From a virus, in IMG/VR virus record IMGVR_UViG_3300045995_000467, positions 1-45,069 of that record: a stretch of 45,069 bases of DNA; one strand, given 5' to 3'. Shown one piece after another: positions 4,457 through 35,757 of the stretch. Within the stretch, counting starts at the first letter, position 1, and each line of letters starts with the position of its first letter. Made by a program: the position numbers and the translations under genes. Below the pieces are notes generated by a model. The model was not told where the DNA came from, searched no databases, and saw only the letters and a list, made by a program, of their open reading frames with translations.

Positions 4457-6670
4457 ATGTTCTGGTTTAAGAAAAAAGAAATATCTATTAAACCAGAACC
4501 AAAGCAGCCAACACGCGCGCCTATGCGTATTGCACCTACATTCGCACAGGATGAAACAAAGCCCTCACTTTACGACCTGCCATCAACACCTCCCCATGTA
4601 ATACCGTCAAAAAATAAAATGGCATGTGATGCGGCTATGGAGGCCAATTACAGCTATGCAGCGGTCAGTTCGATTTTGAGCGAAGGCCAGGGATTCTTGG
4701 GCTATCCTTATTTAGCAGAACTTACCCAACGCCCTGAATACCGGCGTATCAGTGAGATTATCGCTAAAGAAATGACCCGCAAATGGATAAAATTAACATC
4801 GGTTGGTAATGACGATATTGAAGATAAAGCCGATATTATAAAGGCCATTGAGGACGAGTTTAAGCGCCTTAAAGTACAAGAAGTTTGTTTAAAAGTGTTG
4901 GAACATGACGGTTTTTTTGGCCGTGGCCAGATTTACATCGACACCGGCGCGACGGATAACCCGACTGAACTCCTCACAGAACTAAAAGACACCAAACAAA
5001 AGATAGGCATCGGATCCATACAACGCTTAACGCCCGTGGAAGCCATGTGGACGTATCCAAACAGCTATAATTCAATGGATCCCTTAAAGCCGGATTATTT
5101 TGTACCAACGGAATGGTTTGTGATGGGTAAGCGGCTTCATGCTTCCCGGATGATATTTTGTACCAGCCGGAAAGTCCCCGACCTGTTAAAGCCAATTTAT
5201 GCGTTCGGCGGCTTGTCTTTATCGCAAATGTGCAAGCCTTATATCGATAACTGGCTACGCACCAGACAGAGCGTTAGCGATCTGGTTCATAGCTTTAGCG
5301 TGTCAGGCATCAAGACCAACATGGCCGATATTCTAAACGGCGGCGCTTCTGATGTGATGCAGGCAAGAGCACGTCTTTTTAATCAATACCGTGATAATTC
5401 CGGCATGATGATGATTGACAAAGATACGGAAGAATATTTTAACGTATCAACCCCGCTGACAACGTTAGACGCGTTGCAGGCACAAGCCCAGGAACATATG
5501 GCAAGCGTCGCAGGCATACCGTTAGCGATTCTGTTAAAAATAACGCCGTCCGGCTTAAACGCTTCTAGCGAAGGTGAGATACGGATATTTTATGATTTTA
5601 TCGAATCTGAACAGGAAGCCAACCTTCGGCCAATTCTTGAGCGTATTTTAAATATTACACAGCTCAACCTTTTTGGCGAAATCGACAAAGAAATAGGCTT
5701 TGCGTTTGAGCCTTTATGGTCGATGAATGAGATTGAGCTGGCTACTGCCCGCAAGACCGAGGCCGATACCGATGTTGAATACATTAATGCCAATGTTATT
5801 GCGCCGGAGGAAGTACGTACTAGACTGGCAAAAGAAGAAAACAGCATTTATGCAGCGTTAGATTTAAATGTTGAGATTGAGCCGCCTGAAACGGATTTAG
5901 AAGATGATAGTGAGGATAGTCCTGCAATGGATAAGGCTTTTAAAGAATCAGAGCATCCAAGAGCAAATAATGGCGAGTTCGGCACTGGCGGGTCAACTGC
6001 GCAAAAAAAAAACATAAAACATAAAACAACATTTACGGAAGAACGCTCAAGCAAAGGAGAATCAATTAAAAGTGTATTTCCATTAGCTGCCAAGCCGCAA
6101 TTGCAAAAAATAGGGGATGATTTAATAGCAGGACTTAACGGGAATTACGACATAACAATGACCGGCGTAAAATATTCAAAATCAGAGCAAGCGGTTGAAT
6201 TCGAATGTGCCGGCGAAGATGGCACTCACGCCCGCTTTCATTTTGTAAAAGACGGTGAAACACCTGTTAAAATGGAATTTGTAACATTGGTAGCTGGCGA
6301 ACAAAAGACAGGTATTGCTAAAAAAATGCTTTTCAATATGCTGAAAGTTGCAGCGTTGAATAACATAAAAATTATTGATACCCATGCCAACATGAGCGTT
6401 GGCGGCTATGTTTGGGCAAGAGCCGGATTTGTTCCGTATCAAGAATCTTGGGACGATTTGAGAGCCAGGATTATAAAAAATAACCCGGACATAATTGATA
6501 AAAATACGTTAGATTTATTGAATAACCCAAACCCGAAATCTATAACGGACTTAGCCGATAGCGCTGACGGGAAAAAATTATTGATGAATACTTCTTGGTA
6601 TGGAACATTCGATTGCAGCGATGCTGAAAGCCTGGAAAATGCAGCTAAGTATATAAAAAACATGAAATAA
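4457..6670 (+). CDS. Portal protein (DUF1073 family) with GNAT-like C-terminal extension
   Basis: 737 aa, about 250 longer than a plain DUF1073 portal. Residues about 60-470 are the portal: EYRRISEIIAKEMTRKW, YGGLSL-like AFGGLSLSQM, HSFSVSGIKTNM and GIPLAILLKITPSGLNASSEG are typical. A linker at about 490-515 (KESEHPRANNGEFGTGG) is of the HPR-x-NG-x-FG-x-GG type that often joins phage head proteins to extra enzymatic domains. The tail, residues about 530-737, has a GNAT-like pattern: LVAGEQKTGIAKKML (acetyl-CoA loop-like) and GGYVWARAGFVP. A cargo or effector domain injected with, or displayed on, the capsid is possible; activity is unproven. Confidence 0.85.
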   Translation: MFWFKKKEISIKPEPKQPTRAPMRIAPTFAQDETKPSLYDLPSTPPHVIPSKNKMACDAAMEANYSYAAVSSILSEGQGFLGYPYLAELTQRPEYRRISEIIAKEMTRKWIKLTSVGNDDIEDKADIIKAIEDEFKRLKVQEVCLKVLEHDGFFGRGQIYIDTGATDNPTELLTELKDTKQKIGIGSIQRLTPVEAMWTYPNSYNSMDPLKPDYFVPTEWFVMGKRLHASRMIFCTSRKVPDLLKPIYAFGGLSLSQMCKPYIDNWLRTRQSVSDLVHSFSVSGIKTNMADILNGGASDVMQARARLFNQYRDNSGMMMIDKDTEEYFNVSTPLTTLDALQAQAQEHMASVAGIPLAILLKITPSGLNASSEGEIRIFYDFIESEQEANLRPILERILNITQLNLFGEIDKEIGFAFEPLWSMNEIELATARKTEADTDVEYINANVIAPEEVRTRLAKEENSIYAALDLNVEIEPPETDLEDDSEDSPAMDKAFKESEHPRANNGEFGTGGSTAQKKNIKHKTTFTEERSSKGESIKSVFPLAAKPQLQKIGDDLIAGLNGNYDITMTGVKYSKSEQAVEFECAGEDGTHARFHFVKDGETPVKMEFVTLVAGEQKTGIAKKMLFNMLKVAALNNIKIIDTHANMSVGGYVWARAGFVPYQESWDDLRARIIKNNPDIIDKNTLDLLNNPNPKSITDLADSADGKKLLMNTSWYGTFDCSDAESLENAAKYIKNMK

Positions 6671-20209: not shown

Positions 20210-22026
20210 TGGCGACAATTATAGACAGTTTGATCGTTTCTCTGAATTTAGACGCTTCCGGCTTTGCTAAAGGTCAAAAAAACGCGGTTAATGCTCTCAA
20301 CGCGCTTGAGGGTAAAAGCGGCAAATCCAACAAAAATATCCAGTCAGACGCGGATAAAAGCACAAAATCCTTCACAAAATTCAGGAATGAAATTCTAGCG
20401 GTTGCTACGGCTTTTATGAGTATTGGCGCTATCAAGTCATTTTCTGAAAAAATGACGAATGACGATGCCAGCTTAGGCCGTTTGGCCGTCAATCTTGATA
20501 CCAATGTTGAAACATTATCCGCATGGGCAATGGCAGCCGATAAAATGGGCGGTTCATCGGAAGGGATGATTAGCTCAATTAAAGGCATGGTATCCGCTGT
20601 TAATCAGTTTTCAATGACTGGCAAAGGCGGCGAGAGTTTCCAGTATTTTATGTCTGGCCCCGGCGGGATGATCGAATTGATCGATCAGGCCACTGGTAAA
20701 ATGCGGCCTTTCGATGACATACTTTTAGATGCAGCAGACAAGTTAAAAGCAATAGCAGATACGCAAGGGATGGCAAAAGCCCAAGAATGGGGGGTGGGTA
20801 TGGGCTATGACTATGACACTATAAATGTCCTGGTCCTTGGGCATAAAGCCATATTAGACAATGTTAACGCACAAAAAAAGCTAGCTATAGTTACCGGTCC
20901 TGATGCTAAAAATGCGCAGGAGCGGCAAATAGCGTGGAAAAAGTTTGGCAATACTCTCGAAAATGTATGGCGGGGTATTTTACTTACCCTAAGCCCGTCA
21001 ATTGTACATTTAACAGATGAAGCGACTAAGTGGGTAAATTCGCTTGATTTAACGTTTGTCAATGAAAATATTGATAAGTTTGGCGAATATCTAAAAAAAT
21101 TAACATGGGAGGATGCAAAAAAAGGCGCTGAATCTTTTTTAGACCCTATTCTAAAATTAGCGGATGCTTTAAATGTGTTAATGATCCCGTTAAGATTGCT
21201 CAAAGACGCAGGGACATGGTTGGGCGAAACGGTAGCAAAAAATCATCCTGAATTAGGAGAAAATATAGACAAAGCCCTTCAGACTGATGCTATTTTGCTT
21301 GATGACACGACTAATTTTCTTAGAGACAAGGCTAATTGGCTTGGTGACAAGGCTAAAGCAGTTATGGATTTTTTTATTAGTAAAGGTTGGGCTAGCAAAG
21401 ATGCAGCAGGGATAACGGCAGGATTAAAAGCAGAAAGCCCTTCATTTAACCCGCAAGAAAAACAAAAAGGCGGCGGTCCTGGACGAGGGATAGCGCAATG
21501 GGAAGCTCCACGGCAAAAAGATTTTATTGAATGGTCAAAGAAAAACGGTTCCGGCACGGATATTATGCATGCAACATTGCCGGAAGAACTGGAATTTACA
21601 CATTATGAACTTACCAAGGGATCAAGAAAGAAAGCCGGAGACGCTATAAAAGCCTCAACCAGTGCAAAAGAAGCCGGTGCCATTGCATCAAGAAAATACT
21701 TTCAACCGCGCGATGCAGAAGGACAGGCAGAAAAACGCGGCAATGCAGCACAAGATATTTTTGCAAAACTAAAACAGCTTAAAGAATTAGAAGTGCAAAA
21801 CAAAGTAAATAACACCGGCTTGTCACCCAGTCAAATTTATGCGCAAATGAACGCCAATAAAAACAATAAATCAAATGGCAATACATCAACCAACACAAGC
21901 GACGTTAAAATTGCTACTATAAACGTCAATACACAGGCAATCGATGCCAAGGGCATTGCACGGGATATAACCGGCGCGTTGAAAAACCATACGTTTGTTA
22001 ATCAGGCTAATGCAGGAGTACGATGA
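20209..22026 (+). CDS. Tail tape measure protein with tail lysozyme domain
   Basis: 605 aa, GTG start coupled to the chaperone stop. N-terminus IDSLIVSLNLDASGFAKGQ is typical of tape measures; a helical body with hydrophobic parts follows. Residues about 385-510 are a phage_lysozyme2-type domain (DAAGITAGLKAESPSFNP with Glu409 as likely catalytic acid, GRGIAQWEAPRQKDF). It sets tail length and, after injection, opens the peptidoglycan locally. It is short for a myovirus, so the tail should be well under 100 nm. Confidence 0.9.
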   Translation: MATIIDSLIVSLNLDASGFAKGQKNAVNALNALEGKSGKSNKNIQSDADKSTKSFTKFRNEILAVATAFMSIGAIKSFSEKMTNDDASLGRLAVNLDTNVETLSAWAMAADKMGGSSEGMISSIKGMVSAVNQFSMTGKGGESFQYFMSGPGGMIELIDQATGKMRPFDDILLDAADKLKAIADTQGMAKAQEWGVGMGYDYDTINVLVLGHKAILDNVNAQKKLAIVTGPDAKNAQERQIAWKKFGNTLENVWRGILLTLSPSIVHLTDEATKWVNSLDLTFVNENIDKFGEYLKKLTWEDAKKGAESFLDPILKLADALNVLMIPLRLLKDAGTWLGETVAKNHPELGENIDKALQTDAILLDDTTNFLRDKANWLGDKAKAVMDFFISKGWASKDAAGITAGLKAESPSFNPQEKQKGGGPGRGIAQWEAPRQKDFIEWSKKNGSGTDIMHATLPEELEFTHYELTKGSRKKAGDAIKASTSAKEAGAIASRKYFQPRDAEGQAEKRGNAAQDIFAKLKQLKELEVQNKVNNTGLSPSQIYAQMNANKNNKSNGNTSTNTSDVKIATINVNTQAIDAKGIARDITGALKNHTFVNQANAGVR

Positions 22027-22610
22027 TGGCTAACGGAATCCCGAATCTTTGGAGCAATATAGCCAATGTGGTTAATGTCGTATCGCTTGTTATTTCTGAT
22101 GCTGCGTTAATTTATCAACGCTTTCAGGTGTCTGGATGGGGCATTTATAACAAGGACGGTTCTGTTGCCATTATCCCTGATTCTATCGTATCAATAGACT
22201 TTCATAATGAGTGGCCGACATCTACCTACCCCATGGAGCGCGGTGCGTTTCAAAGTTATAATAAAGTACAAACGCCTTTTGAAAATAAAATAACGATGAC
22301 CAAAGGCGGCTCGATAGCTGAAAAACAGGCGTTTCTTGTTCAAATAGACAGGATTGGCGATAGCTTGTCGATGTTTGACATTATCACCCCAGAACAAATT
22401 TATGCCGACATGACCATAGAAAGCGTTGACTATATGCGCTCTAGCGAAAACGGTGCATCCATGTTGACTGTCGACGTGGGATTTAAAGAGATACGCTTTT
22501 CGGCTGACGCTATCGGCAGCAACCCGAAGAACTATAATGATAGAACGCCGGTATCGACATCGCCCGTGCAGCCGCAATCCCCGGCAGCAGAACCGGCACC
22601 GGTTACGTAA
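22023..22610 (+). CDS. Tail/baseplate protein of unknown family
   Basis: 195 aa, ATGA overlap with the tape measure gene. Beta-rich middle part (SIVSIDFHNEWPTSTYPMERGAF, FENKITMTKGG, DMTIESVDYMRSSENGASML) like proteins at the tape measure-baseplate junction (distal-tail/LysM-adaptor position). Pro/Ala-rich disordered C-terminus. Confidence 0.65.
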   Translation: MMANGIPNLWSNIANVVNVVSLVISDAALIYQRFQVSGWGIYNKDGSVAIIPDSIVSIDFHNEWPTSTYPMERGAFQSYNKVQTPFENKITMTKGGSIAEKQAFLVQIDRIGDSLSMFDIITPEQIYADMTIESVDYMRSSENGASMLTVDVGFKEIRFSADAIGSNPKNYNDRTPVSTSPVQPQSPAAEPAPVT

Positions 22611-22638
22611 TGTGAAAATTAAAATAATAGGCTTTTTG

Positions 22639-22688
22639 CTTACCCGAAAAGCGCCGTGCAACTCGGCACCCTTTTAACTTCTGGTAAG
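22639..22688 (+). ncRNA. Candidate structured leader RNA upstream of KilA-N gene
   Basis: Nested pairings: outer CTTACC (22639-22644) with GGTAAG (22683-22688), middle AAAAG (22647-22651) with CTTTT (22671-22675), inner GCCG/CGGC or alternatively GTGC/GCAC (22653-22669). It ends 8 bases before the KilA-N ATG and covers the ribosome-binding part (ggtaagag). I cannot name an RNA family. It is probably a translational control element or part of the inserted unit. Confidence 0.5.
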
Positions 22689-22696
22689 AGAAAATT

Positions 22697-23380
22697 ATGA
22701 AAACGCAAAATAAAGTTGTTCCATTATTCGATAACTCTACATCAATAAGAATTGGTGATACCGTTATTCACATGGATGAGAATGGGCGTTATTGTCTTAA
22801 TGATTTACATCAAGCAAGTGGTGGGCATGGAAATGATAGACCCAGTATTTGGTTAACAACAAAAACAGCTAAAAATTACGTTACTTTTTTAACAGACCTA
22901 AGCAAGAATTCTTGCTTAGCTTCGCCAATAGAATCTATAAAAGGAACAGCTAATCCTGGAACTTATGCAGTAAAAGAATTAGTTTATACTTACGCTGCTT
23001 GGATAAGTATTAAATTTCATCACGAAGTAATTTCTACTTATGACAAAGTTATCATGGCAGAGCATTACCAACTCGAATCTGCACAAGAAAGATTAAAACA
23101 TTCAATTCTATTAAATAAAGATTGTCCAAAGTCTATTATTGGCACCCAGAAAAATCAAGACATAAATTTGCTTTATCAACGAATGGAATTGGATGGATTG
23201 ATAATCAAGCAGGAAATTATTAAAGTTTTGTATCGATACATAGTTACTACCAAAGGCACTGAATTATTTGGCGTAAGAAATTCGTTAAGTGGCGTAAGAA
23301 TTAGTGAAGAATATCATAATGCTTTGCGTGACCTAATGCAGAAGATTTTACACGAAGATCAAGATGACTGGACTATTTAA
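22697..23380 (+). CDS. KilA-N domain protein (antirepressor-like), inserted among baseplate genes
   Basis: 227 aa. Residues about 17-110 are KilA-N: YCLNDLHQASGGHGNDRPSIWL, ANPGTYAVKELVYTYAAWISIKFHHEVISTYD. KilA-N domains bind DNA and are frequent in phage antirepressors and in stand-alone mobile phage genes. The C-terminal part is helical and unrecognised. It separates the tail protein at 22023 from the plug protein whose ATG overlaps its stop. Codon use looks more AT-rich than the flanking tail genes, pointing to acquisition. Confidence 0.85.
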   Translation: MKTQNKVVPLFDNSTSIRIGDTVIHMDENGRYCLNDLHQASGGHGNDRPSIWLTTKTAKNYVTFLTDLSKNSCLASPIESIKGTANPGTYAVKELVYTYAAWISIKFHHEVISTYDKVIMAEHYQLESAQERLKHSILLNKDCPKSIIGTQKNQDINLLYQRMELDGLIIKQEIIKVLYRYIVTTKGTELFGVRNSLSGVRISEEYHNALRDLMQKILHEDQDDWTI

Positions 23381-23676
23381 TGAACAGCCAAACAATACCA
23401 ATTACTGATAATCCTAACCAGATTCTAACCGTATCGCTGGGCGGCCAACAATGTACGATAAATTTGTATCAAGAATCTTACGGCCTATTTTGTGATGTTA
23501 GCGTTAATAACGTCCTTATTGTTGCTGGTGTTATTTGTCAAAATCTTAATCGCATTGTTAGAGATTCCCATCTGGGCTTTGTTGGTGATTTGTATTTTAT
23601 TGACACTCAGGATTTATCAGACCCGGTAAGTCCTGGATTGGGGTCGCGTTTTTTATTCAAATATCTCAACGCATGA
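23380..23676 (+). CDS. Baseplate plug protein (Pam3 gp18-like)
   Basis: 98 aa, start overlapping the KilA-N stop. The pattern TVSLGGQQCTINLYQESYGLFCDVSVN, VAGVICQNLNRIV and DLYFIDTQDLSDP with GLGSRFLFKYL matches the small plug proteins that seal the tube at the baseplate hub. Confidence 0.75.
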   Translation: MNSQTIPITDNPNQILTVSLGGQQCTINLYQESYGLFCDVSVNNVLIVAGVICQNLNRIVRDSHLGFVGDLYFIDTQDLSDPVSPGLGSRFLFKYLNA

Positions 23677-35423: not shown

Positions 35424-35757
35424 TTTGTTGTCCCGGATATTCCCGTTTAGCAAGCGCCCAGGCTTGTGAGCGTATGGCATTATTGATGAGGGTATTGATA
35501 GGGTCGTGCCGGTTTTCCCATTTACCATACAATGTGCTTCCGACAATAGCCCGCAGCAGCTCGTAGTCCTCGTCATTGAGCAATTCAGCCGATAGATGAT
35601 TGATAAACGCCACCGAGGCTATATCAACGTCGCTTTTTATTTCTTTTTCGATTTTGTCAGTAAGACACGCTTGTTTTTGTTCCAAGGCTTCTTCAAGAGT
35701 CGTTTCTGGTTCTTGTGCATTGTCGTAGTCCAGTTGATTTTTAAACATTTTTATCAC
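35410..35757 (-). CDS. Hypothetical 115-aa protein whose 5' end is duplicated upstream
   Basis: The first 23 codons (starting MIKMFKNQLDYDNAQEPETT) are the same as those now fused to the Hsp90-like ATPase gene, apart from one codon. The remainder (KIEKEIKSDVDIASVAFINH, AIRSQAWALAKREYPG) is helical. It is preceded by a promoter and leader very like those at 1110-1158. It appears to be the original gene into which the ATPase unit was inserted; it was kept intact because the repeat restores its start. Confidence 0.6.
   Translation of the reverse strand: MIKMFKNQLDYDNAQEPETTLEEALEQKQACLTDKIEKEIKSDVDIASVAFINHLSAELLNDEDYELLRAIVGSTLYGKWENRHDPINTLINNAIRSQAWALAKREYPGQQNDNV

Follow-up and report, generated by a model that had tools for sequence, protein, structure and literature searches.

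A predicted three-hairpin kissing-loop leader RNA ahead of a KilA-N gene inserted among phage baseplate genes

A KilA-N gene between Dit and plug genes

The window analysed here, that is, the whole 45,069-nucleotide stretch of the viral record IMGVR_UViG_3300045995_000467, carries on its plus strand a gene for a KilA-N domain protein of 227 aa (22697–23380) lying between two tail genes of the same orientation. On its 5' side there is a Dit-like tail/baseplate gene (22023–22610; PF21821, E = 3.1e-08), the product of which shows 26–38% identity to its homologues from L013 to L016, and on its 3' side a Pam3 gp18-like baseplate plug gene (23380–23676; PF22479, E = 1.1e-15), whose ATG shares 1 nt with the KilA-N TAA. 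Pfam family PF04383 matches residues 20–117 of the KilA-N protein (E = 2.3e-15) at 56.8 bits, against a family cut-off of 23.8, and its PHROGs match is phrog_129 ("transcriptional regulator"), with a weaker match to phrog_2127 ("anti-repressor").

Homologous Dit and plug genes occur in four relatives. The two genes overlap in the phages Amjad_SA (Pseudomonas) and Acjo_20 (Acinetobacter), and a single base separates them in Brutus (Acinetobacter) and ST15-VIM1phi2.1 (Klebsiella). Since these four relatives have no KilA-N gene between Dit and plug, the leader and the KilA-N gene of the window represent an insertion of about 770 bp, in agreement with the preliminary description of this DNA, which had placed a KilA-N gene with a stop overlapping the next ATG inside a coupled baseplate block. 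In Acjo_20 and Brutus, other small genes sit one position beyond the Dit-plug junction, so this tail-gene block tolerates additional genes. As for the function of the inserted gene, a Pfam search of the record (which may be a fragment) gave no phage integrase, and no CI-type repressor was noticed among the ORFs examined in it; an antirepressor role of the KilA-N protein is thus unproven, and we treat it as a candidate only.

Other features of this DNA were also recorded. A 22-bp perfect palindrome, CTAAGCAAGAATTCTTGCTTAG (22898–22919), lies within the KilA-N coding sequence, at a place where the homologues vary. Two ORFs on the minus strand, at 35757 and 37489, start with an identical sequence of about 60 bp (GTGATAAAAATGTTTAAAAATCAACTGGACTACG...), corresponding to a recent partial duplication, and the second of them encodes a GHKL ATPase-like protein. 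By eye, a small GIY-YIG-like ORF (2426–2833) precedes the terminase gene, and the portal gene bears an acetyltransferase-like C-terminal extension (5940–6670). Finally, in another tail block, that of a Klebsiella phage, an inserted Rha-family gene has a long structured leader (L016, 420–515).

Fold of the leader RNA and its covariation

The region that precedes the KilA-N gene and runs through its start codon (22631–22699, plus strand) was matched by R2, a covariance model built from 30 sequences with the window left out, at 64.4 bits (E = 3.6e-18), this being the sole match in the 45 kb. The predicted fold consists of three hairpins in tandem, the first and the third being joined by a kissing loop within the same molecule. 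Hairpin H1 (22631–22652) has a stem of 8 bp, formed by GCTTTTTG (22631–22638) and CGAAAAGC (22645–22652), and a CTTACC loop (22639–22644). Hairpin H2 (22653–22667) pairs GCCG (22653–22656) with CGGC (22664–22667) around the loop UGCAACU, which fits the GNRA-like signature UGNRACY (A4/A5 pair counts and loop list). Hairpin H3 (22679–22692) pairs TTCT (22679–22682) with AGAA (22689–22692), and its loop GGTAAG (22683–22688), which is the Shine-Dalgarno region, is complementary at 6/6 positions to the H1 loop, the kissing contact thus spanning 22639–22688.

All the sequence strings quoted in the preliminary description before the KilA-N start are present, and the structured leader that it had proposed, including the ribosome site, is borne out by the R2 match and by covariation, although with another arrangement of the pairings. 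Its CTTACC/GGTAAG pairing is genuine, but as a loop-loop contact and not as the base of a nested stem; of the two registers given for the inner GC stem, GCCG/CGGC stands, whereas GTGC/GCAC cannot form in most relatives; and the nesting of AAAAG with CTTTT had to be abandoned, as relatives pair AAAAGC in the 5' direction with GCTTTT, within the 8-bp H1 stem. The 5' arm of H1 and the whole of H3 had been missed. An IMG/VR search for the exact nested pattern CTTACC..AAAAG..CTTTT..GGTAAG gave 11 matches attributable to chance, none of them rightly arranged before a recognisable gene, and an H-type pseudoknot reading of the leader was dropped in favour of the kissing loop after H3 was recognised. 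Taken as a single sequence, the window leader folds weakly (RNAfold, z = -1.16), its non-pseudoknot MFE omits H3 and the kissing loop, its H3 has only 4 bp, and the Shine-Dalgarno, at -2.9 kcal/mol, is weak.

The evidence for the fold comes from its relatives. A model built from 13 sequences (R1) found 60 matches, and the family comprises 48 distinct members; the kissing pairing is part of neither R1 nor R2. The H1 stem sequence differs in nearly every member, with 46 distinct 5' strands and double changes at 8/8 stem pairs (49 distinct rows). In 46 of the 48 members, the whole H1 loop is complementary, along 6–7 bp, to a stretch immediately upstream of the start codon, and about a dozen versions of this pairing occur, including CTTACC/GGTAAG, CTCACC/GGTGAG, CTCGCC/GGCGAG, CTCATCC/GGATGAG, CTCACT/AGTGAG, and CTCTCC/GGAGAG. 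The mean kissing match was 6.06 nt, compared with a maximum of 4.39 over 2000 shuffles of partners among members. Regarding H3, its stem has at least 3 bp in 46/47 rows, and flush stems average 4.55 bp versus 2.10 with exchanged partners (maximum 2.87); in each of two separate alignments, its pair counts gave 0/500 shuffles for paired cells and for the covariation score, whereas in alignment A7 the count of pair types was not above shuffles. When all the helices were considered jointly, 95% of cells were paired and 17/23 pairs showed double changes (0/500 shuffles), and the covariation signal collapsed in slid registers. Since the sequences are related, none of these shuffle results is a probability, and a stronger argument than the shuffles lies in how varied the H1 and loop sequences are. 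Judged from these alignments, the covariation is strong for the H1 and kissing pairs and clear for H3.

In contrast to the changing H1, the sequence of H2 is conserved, 33 members having GCCG-UGNRACY-CGGC or stem variants of it and 15 members a second type, GCCGG-A..CGUAA-CCGGC. No family in Rfam 15, its known riboswitch classes included, matches the leader, and the literature, as far as it was searched, holds no description of a three-hairpin kissing-loop leader. This leader family, absent from Rfam 15, follows the established principle of hiding the ribosome site by means of a distinct fold.

The second-type H2 hairpin, GCCGGAYAACGUAACCGGCA, was also detected in its own right in 55 IMG/VR contigs, mostly outside the kissing leader and often behind another hairpin, ACGGUC..GAC (L323–L376, e.g., L342 5722–5741 and L340 4259–4278), as well as in phages ZF40, Sasha, SEN5, and Sf12 (L377–L381). 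No Rfam family was found at this hairpin in the 20 loci scanned, and it has the appearance of an RNA module that is widespread in phages and unclassified.

Distribution of the leader and of the genes behind it

A context-free search of IMG/VR with GCCGTGCAACTCGGCNCC gave the first relatives (L216, L220, L224, L225, and L226), in all of which the leader immediately follows one phage head gene and is succeeded by differing genes. Searching with the head protein yielded 80 more loci, some 50 of them with the leader RNA, and two further pattern scans added members; the IMG/VR pattern scans required an exact H2, so that other contexts are perhaps under-sampled. All the verified members are downstream of a phage head gene with one exception, the window leader, which is also alone in preceding a KilA-N gene. 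In the window, where the leader follows Dit instead, neither the head gene nor the usual genes behind the leader (its clients) had a homologue; the head-gene position is a context common to the other members, whereas the family is defined by its fold.

At 69 non-redundant head-site loci, about 48 carried the leader and about 7 an intrinsic-terminator-like hairpin instead, some of the terminator flags in this count being the leader's own H2; L236 and L276 showed both elements, and the remaining loci neither. Model R2 recovered all nine phage records known as carriers, with one leader copy per phage, and the same tool found nothing in 369 Gammaproteobacteria genomes under filters stricter than those of the nine-record run. 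No type-1 leader was detected among the isolate phages in INPHARED, where the searches returned 0 records for the stand-alone client described below, 2 for the methyltransferase fusion, and 1 for the head gene.

In 40 of 55 cases, the client was a SAM methyltransferase fused to a C-terminal domain, and in nine more this domain stood alone; its predicted fold shows a weak likeness to DUF115-type archaeal HPPK and to the sialyltransferase CstII (TM about 0.4). Other clients were a smaller methyltransferase, a GIY-YIG/NUMOD3 gene, and a small Cys-rich ORF, the last two placed between the leader and the usual client. Several clients are followed by head-tail connector genes, two phages (L302 and a Desulfofustis phage) have no client at the head site, and client genes also occur without the leader. 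As far as these comparisons go, the leader is the re-used part, and it is the gene behind it that changes. In L236, the GIY-YIG/NUMOD3 endonuclease gene (4483–5104) immediately follows the leader and precedes the usual client, as though by insertion at this point it had captured the leader.

The expectation that the leader would always accompany KilA-N genes did not hold, as none of 96 other loci, KilA-N-related or used for comparison and with the closest homologue found (L190) among them, gave a match, and the verified relatives precede other genes. The leader was thus seemingly acquired independently of the KilA-N gene family. When KilA-N relatives were collected by protein and their leaders aligned, C4/isrK, sRNA-Xcc1, and others emerged, but not the kissing-loop leader. 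The RNAs of immI antirepressor control, C4 (RF01695) and isrK (RF01394), are similar to it in being structured and directly upstream of phage KilA-N genes; however, the fold of C4 differs, and its model has no match at the window leader. Likewise, sRNA-Xcc1 (RF02221) is found directly 5' of KilA-N genes in L017, L039, and L053, but it is a different RNA, with no gathering match in the window.

Along these KilA-N loci, C4 precedes many Methylococcales genes (L181–L209), several of them also with isrK, corresponding to immI-type antirepressor control; the idea that these Methylococcales leaders were new pseudoknots was wrong, as they are C4. The sRNA-Xcc1 copies (L017 1348–1431, L039 3875–3960, and L053 3848–3931) are in Acinetobacter, this RNA being known from Xanthomonas and integron cassettes, and their location before phage KilA-N genes suggests a C4-like role. 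In addition, two further recurrent hairpin leaders were found 5' of KilA-N genes (L031, L034, L036, L051, L079, L110, and L136; likewise L044, L068, L082, and L095), one in Acinetobacter, with stems that change yet remain complementary, and another in enterobacteria, with a TGCAG apical loop.

Proposed translational control and its alternatives

In 34/41 members, the H3 loop shares at least 3 nt with the segment that best matches the 3' end of the 16S rRNA (anti-SD), and the median distance from this loop to the start codon is 10 nt, so that the Shine-Dalgarno region falls within the kissing loop. We propose, with a probability of about 0.7, that the leader acts in cis on translation, throttling, and maybe regulating, a non-structural gene embedded in a late head or tail operon that is strongly transcribed. 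The H1-H3 kissing contact would hide the Shine-Dalgarno region from the 30S subunit, and the client protein would thus be made at a low level, or only once this contact opens. The leader is modular: in metagenomic phages it heads, as a rule, a methyltransferase/DUF115-like gene that follows the head genes, and in the window phage it heads the KilA-N gene inserted between Dit and plug. The newcomers found directly behind it (the GIY-YIG gene and the Cys-rich ORF) count in favour of a modular throttle, and the alternation of leader or terminator at the head site is consistent with the attenuation of a gene behind capsid genes; both elements may be means of limiting a non-structural gene located after capsid genes with strong expression. 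In the window, given the overlap between the KilA-N stop and the plug start, the leader might also affect the essential baseplate plug gene. Of the switch on an antirepressor that had been put forward in the preliminary description, the control of the ribosome site appears well supported by covariation, but the antirepressor part keeps the candidate status given above.

This arrangement recalls T4-type homing endonuclease genes (I-TevI, segB, and Aeh1 mobE), whose ribosome site is sequestered by RNA structure (PMC2988022). In both cases a foreign gene lies in an essential phage operon with its ribosome site hidden by RNA; however, each T4-type gene was described with a single structure of its own (PMC2988022), whereas here one conserved fold of three hairpins with a kissing loop is reused ahead of different genes across many phages.

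The conservation of the H2 loop, beyond what simple occlusion needs, suggests a partner. It is possible, if tentative, that the leader is a modular kissing-loop switch responsive to a ligand or factor, which phages would reuse and exchange in order to time or limit any accessory gene arriving behind it in a late operon; in the window, it would have moved from the head modules of one type of phage to the baseplate module of another, with a new client. More specifically, a riboswitch, in which a small molecule bound at H2 and at its junction with the kissing complex would open or close the ribosome site, seems unlikely, even though the conserved loops (UGNRACY or AYAACGUAA-type) and the many clients that are SAM methyltransferase fusions would fit it, and ribosome-site-sequestering pseudoknots are a common riboswitch design. 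Those of preQ1-II, SAM-II, SAM-V, and SAM/SAH share with the leader a long-range pairing, a 3' strand that is the Shine-Dalgarno, and an extra hairpin between the strands. However, the 3' strand of the kissing leader is a hairpin loop, no Rfam riboswitch matches it, and its clients are functionally mixed (stand-alone DUF115-like proteins without methyltransferase, GIY-YIG, the small Cys-rich protein, and KilA-N). A SAM riboswitch in particular was weakened as a candidate, since stand-alone DUF115-like clients without methyltransferase carry the same leader.

The partner could also be a protein, either of the phage (the head protein, the client, or KilA-N) or of the host, which would bind the leader and set its translation, as in the translational operators of MS2 coat and T4 gp32. 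The GNRA-like conserved H2 loop offers a possible docking site, and DNA-binding phage regulators can bind RNA, but the same leader serves phages and clients that share neither head protein nor client, and the window lacks both, which makes such an operator quite improbable.

The insertion with its empty sites in relatives and the GIY-YIG gene behind the leader in L236 would be expected if leader and gene formed a single mobile unit, with the RNA involved in mobility, as had been suggested in the preliminary description. In that strict sense the suggestion is very improbable: leader and client combine variously, clients occur without the leader as well, no shared termini were seen, and the distance from leader to start codon is kept, as for an element acting on the ribosome site. 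Finally, control of an antirepressor by a C4-type antisense RNA, of the immI type known from P1 and P22, has hardly any chance of applying to the window despite C4 and isrK preceding KilA-N genes elsewhere, because RF01695 gave no match at 22560–22760 even at E <= 10 and the leader has a different architecture and matches another family.

In conclusion, translational throttling by the leader is the reading we prefer, and in dozens of unrelated phages the same fold stands before further extra genes, the proteins of which it probably throttles too. The finding adds an RNA family with strong covariation in which the ribosome site is predicted to be tied into an intramolecular loop-loop complex. 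If the proposed throttle is true, it would account for the tolerance of phages to accessory genes within the operons that they express most strongly, and the leader could serve to mark such embedded accessory genes in uncultured phages.
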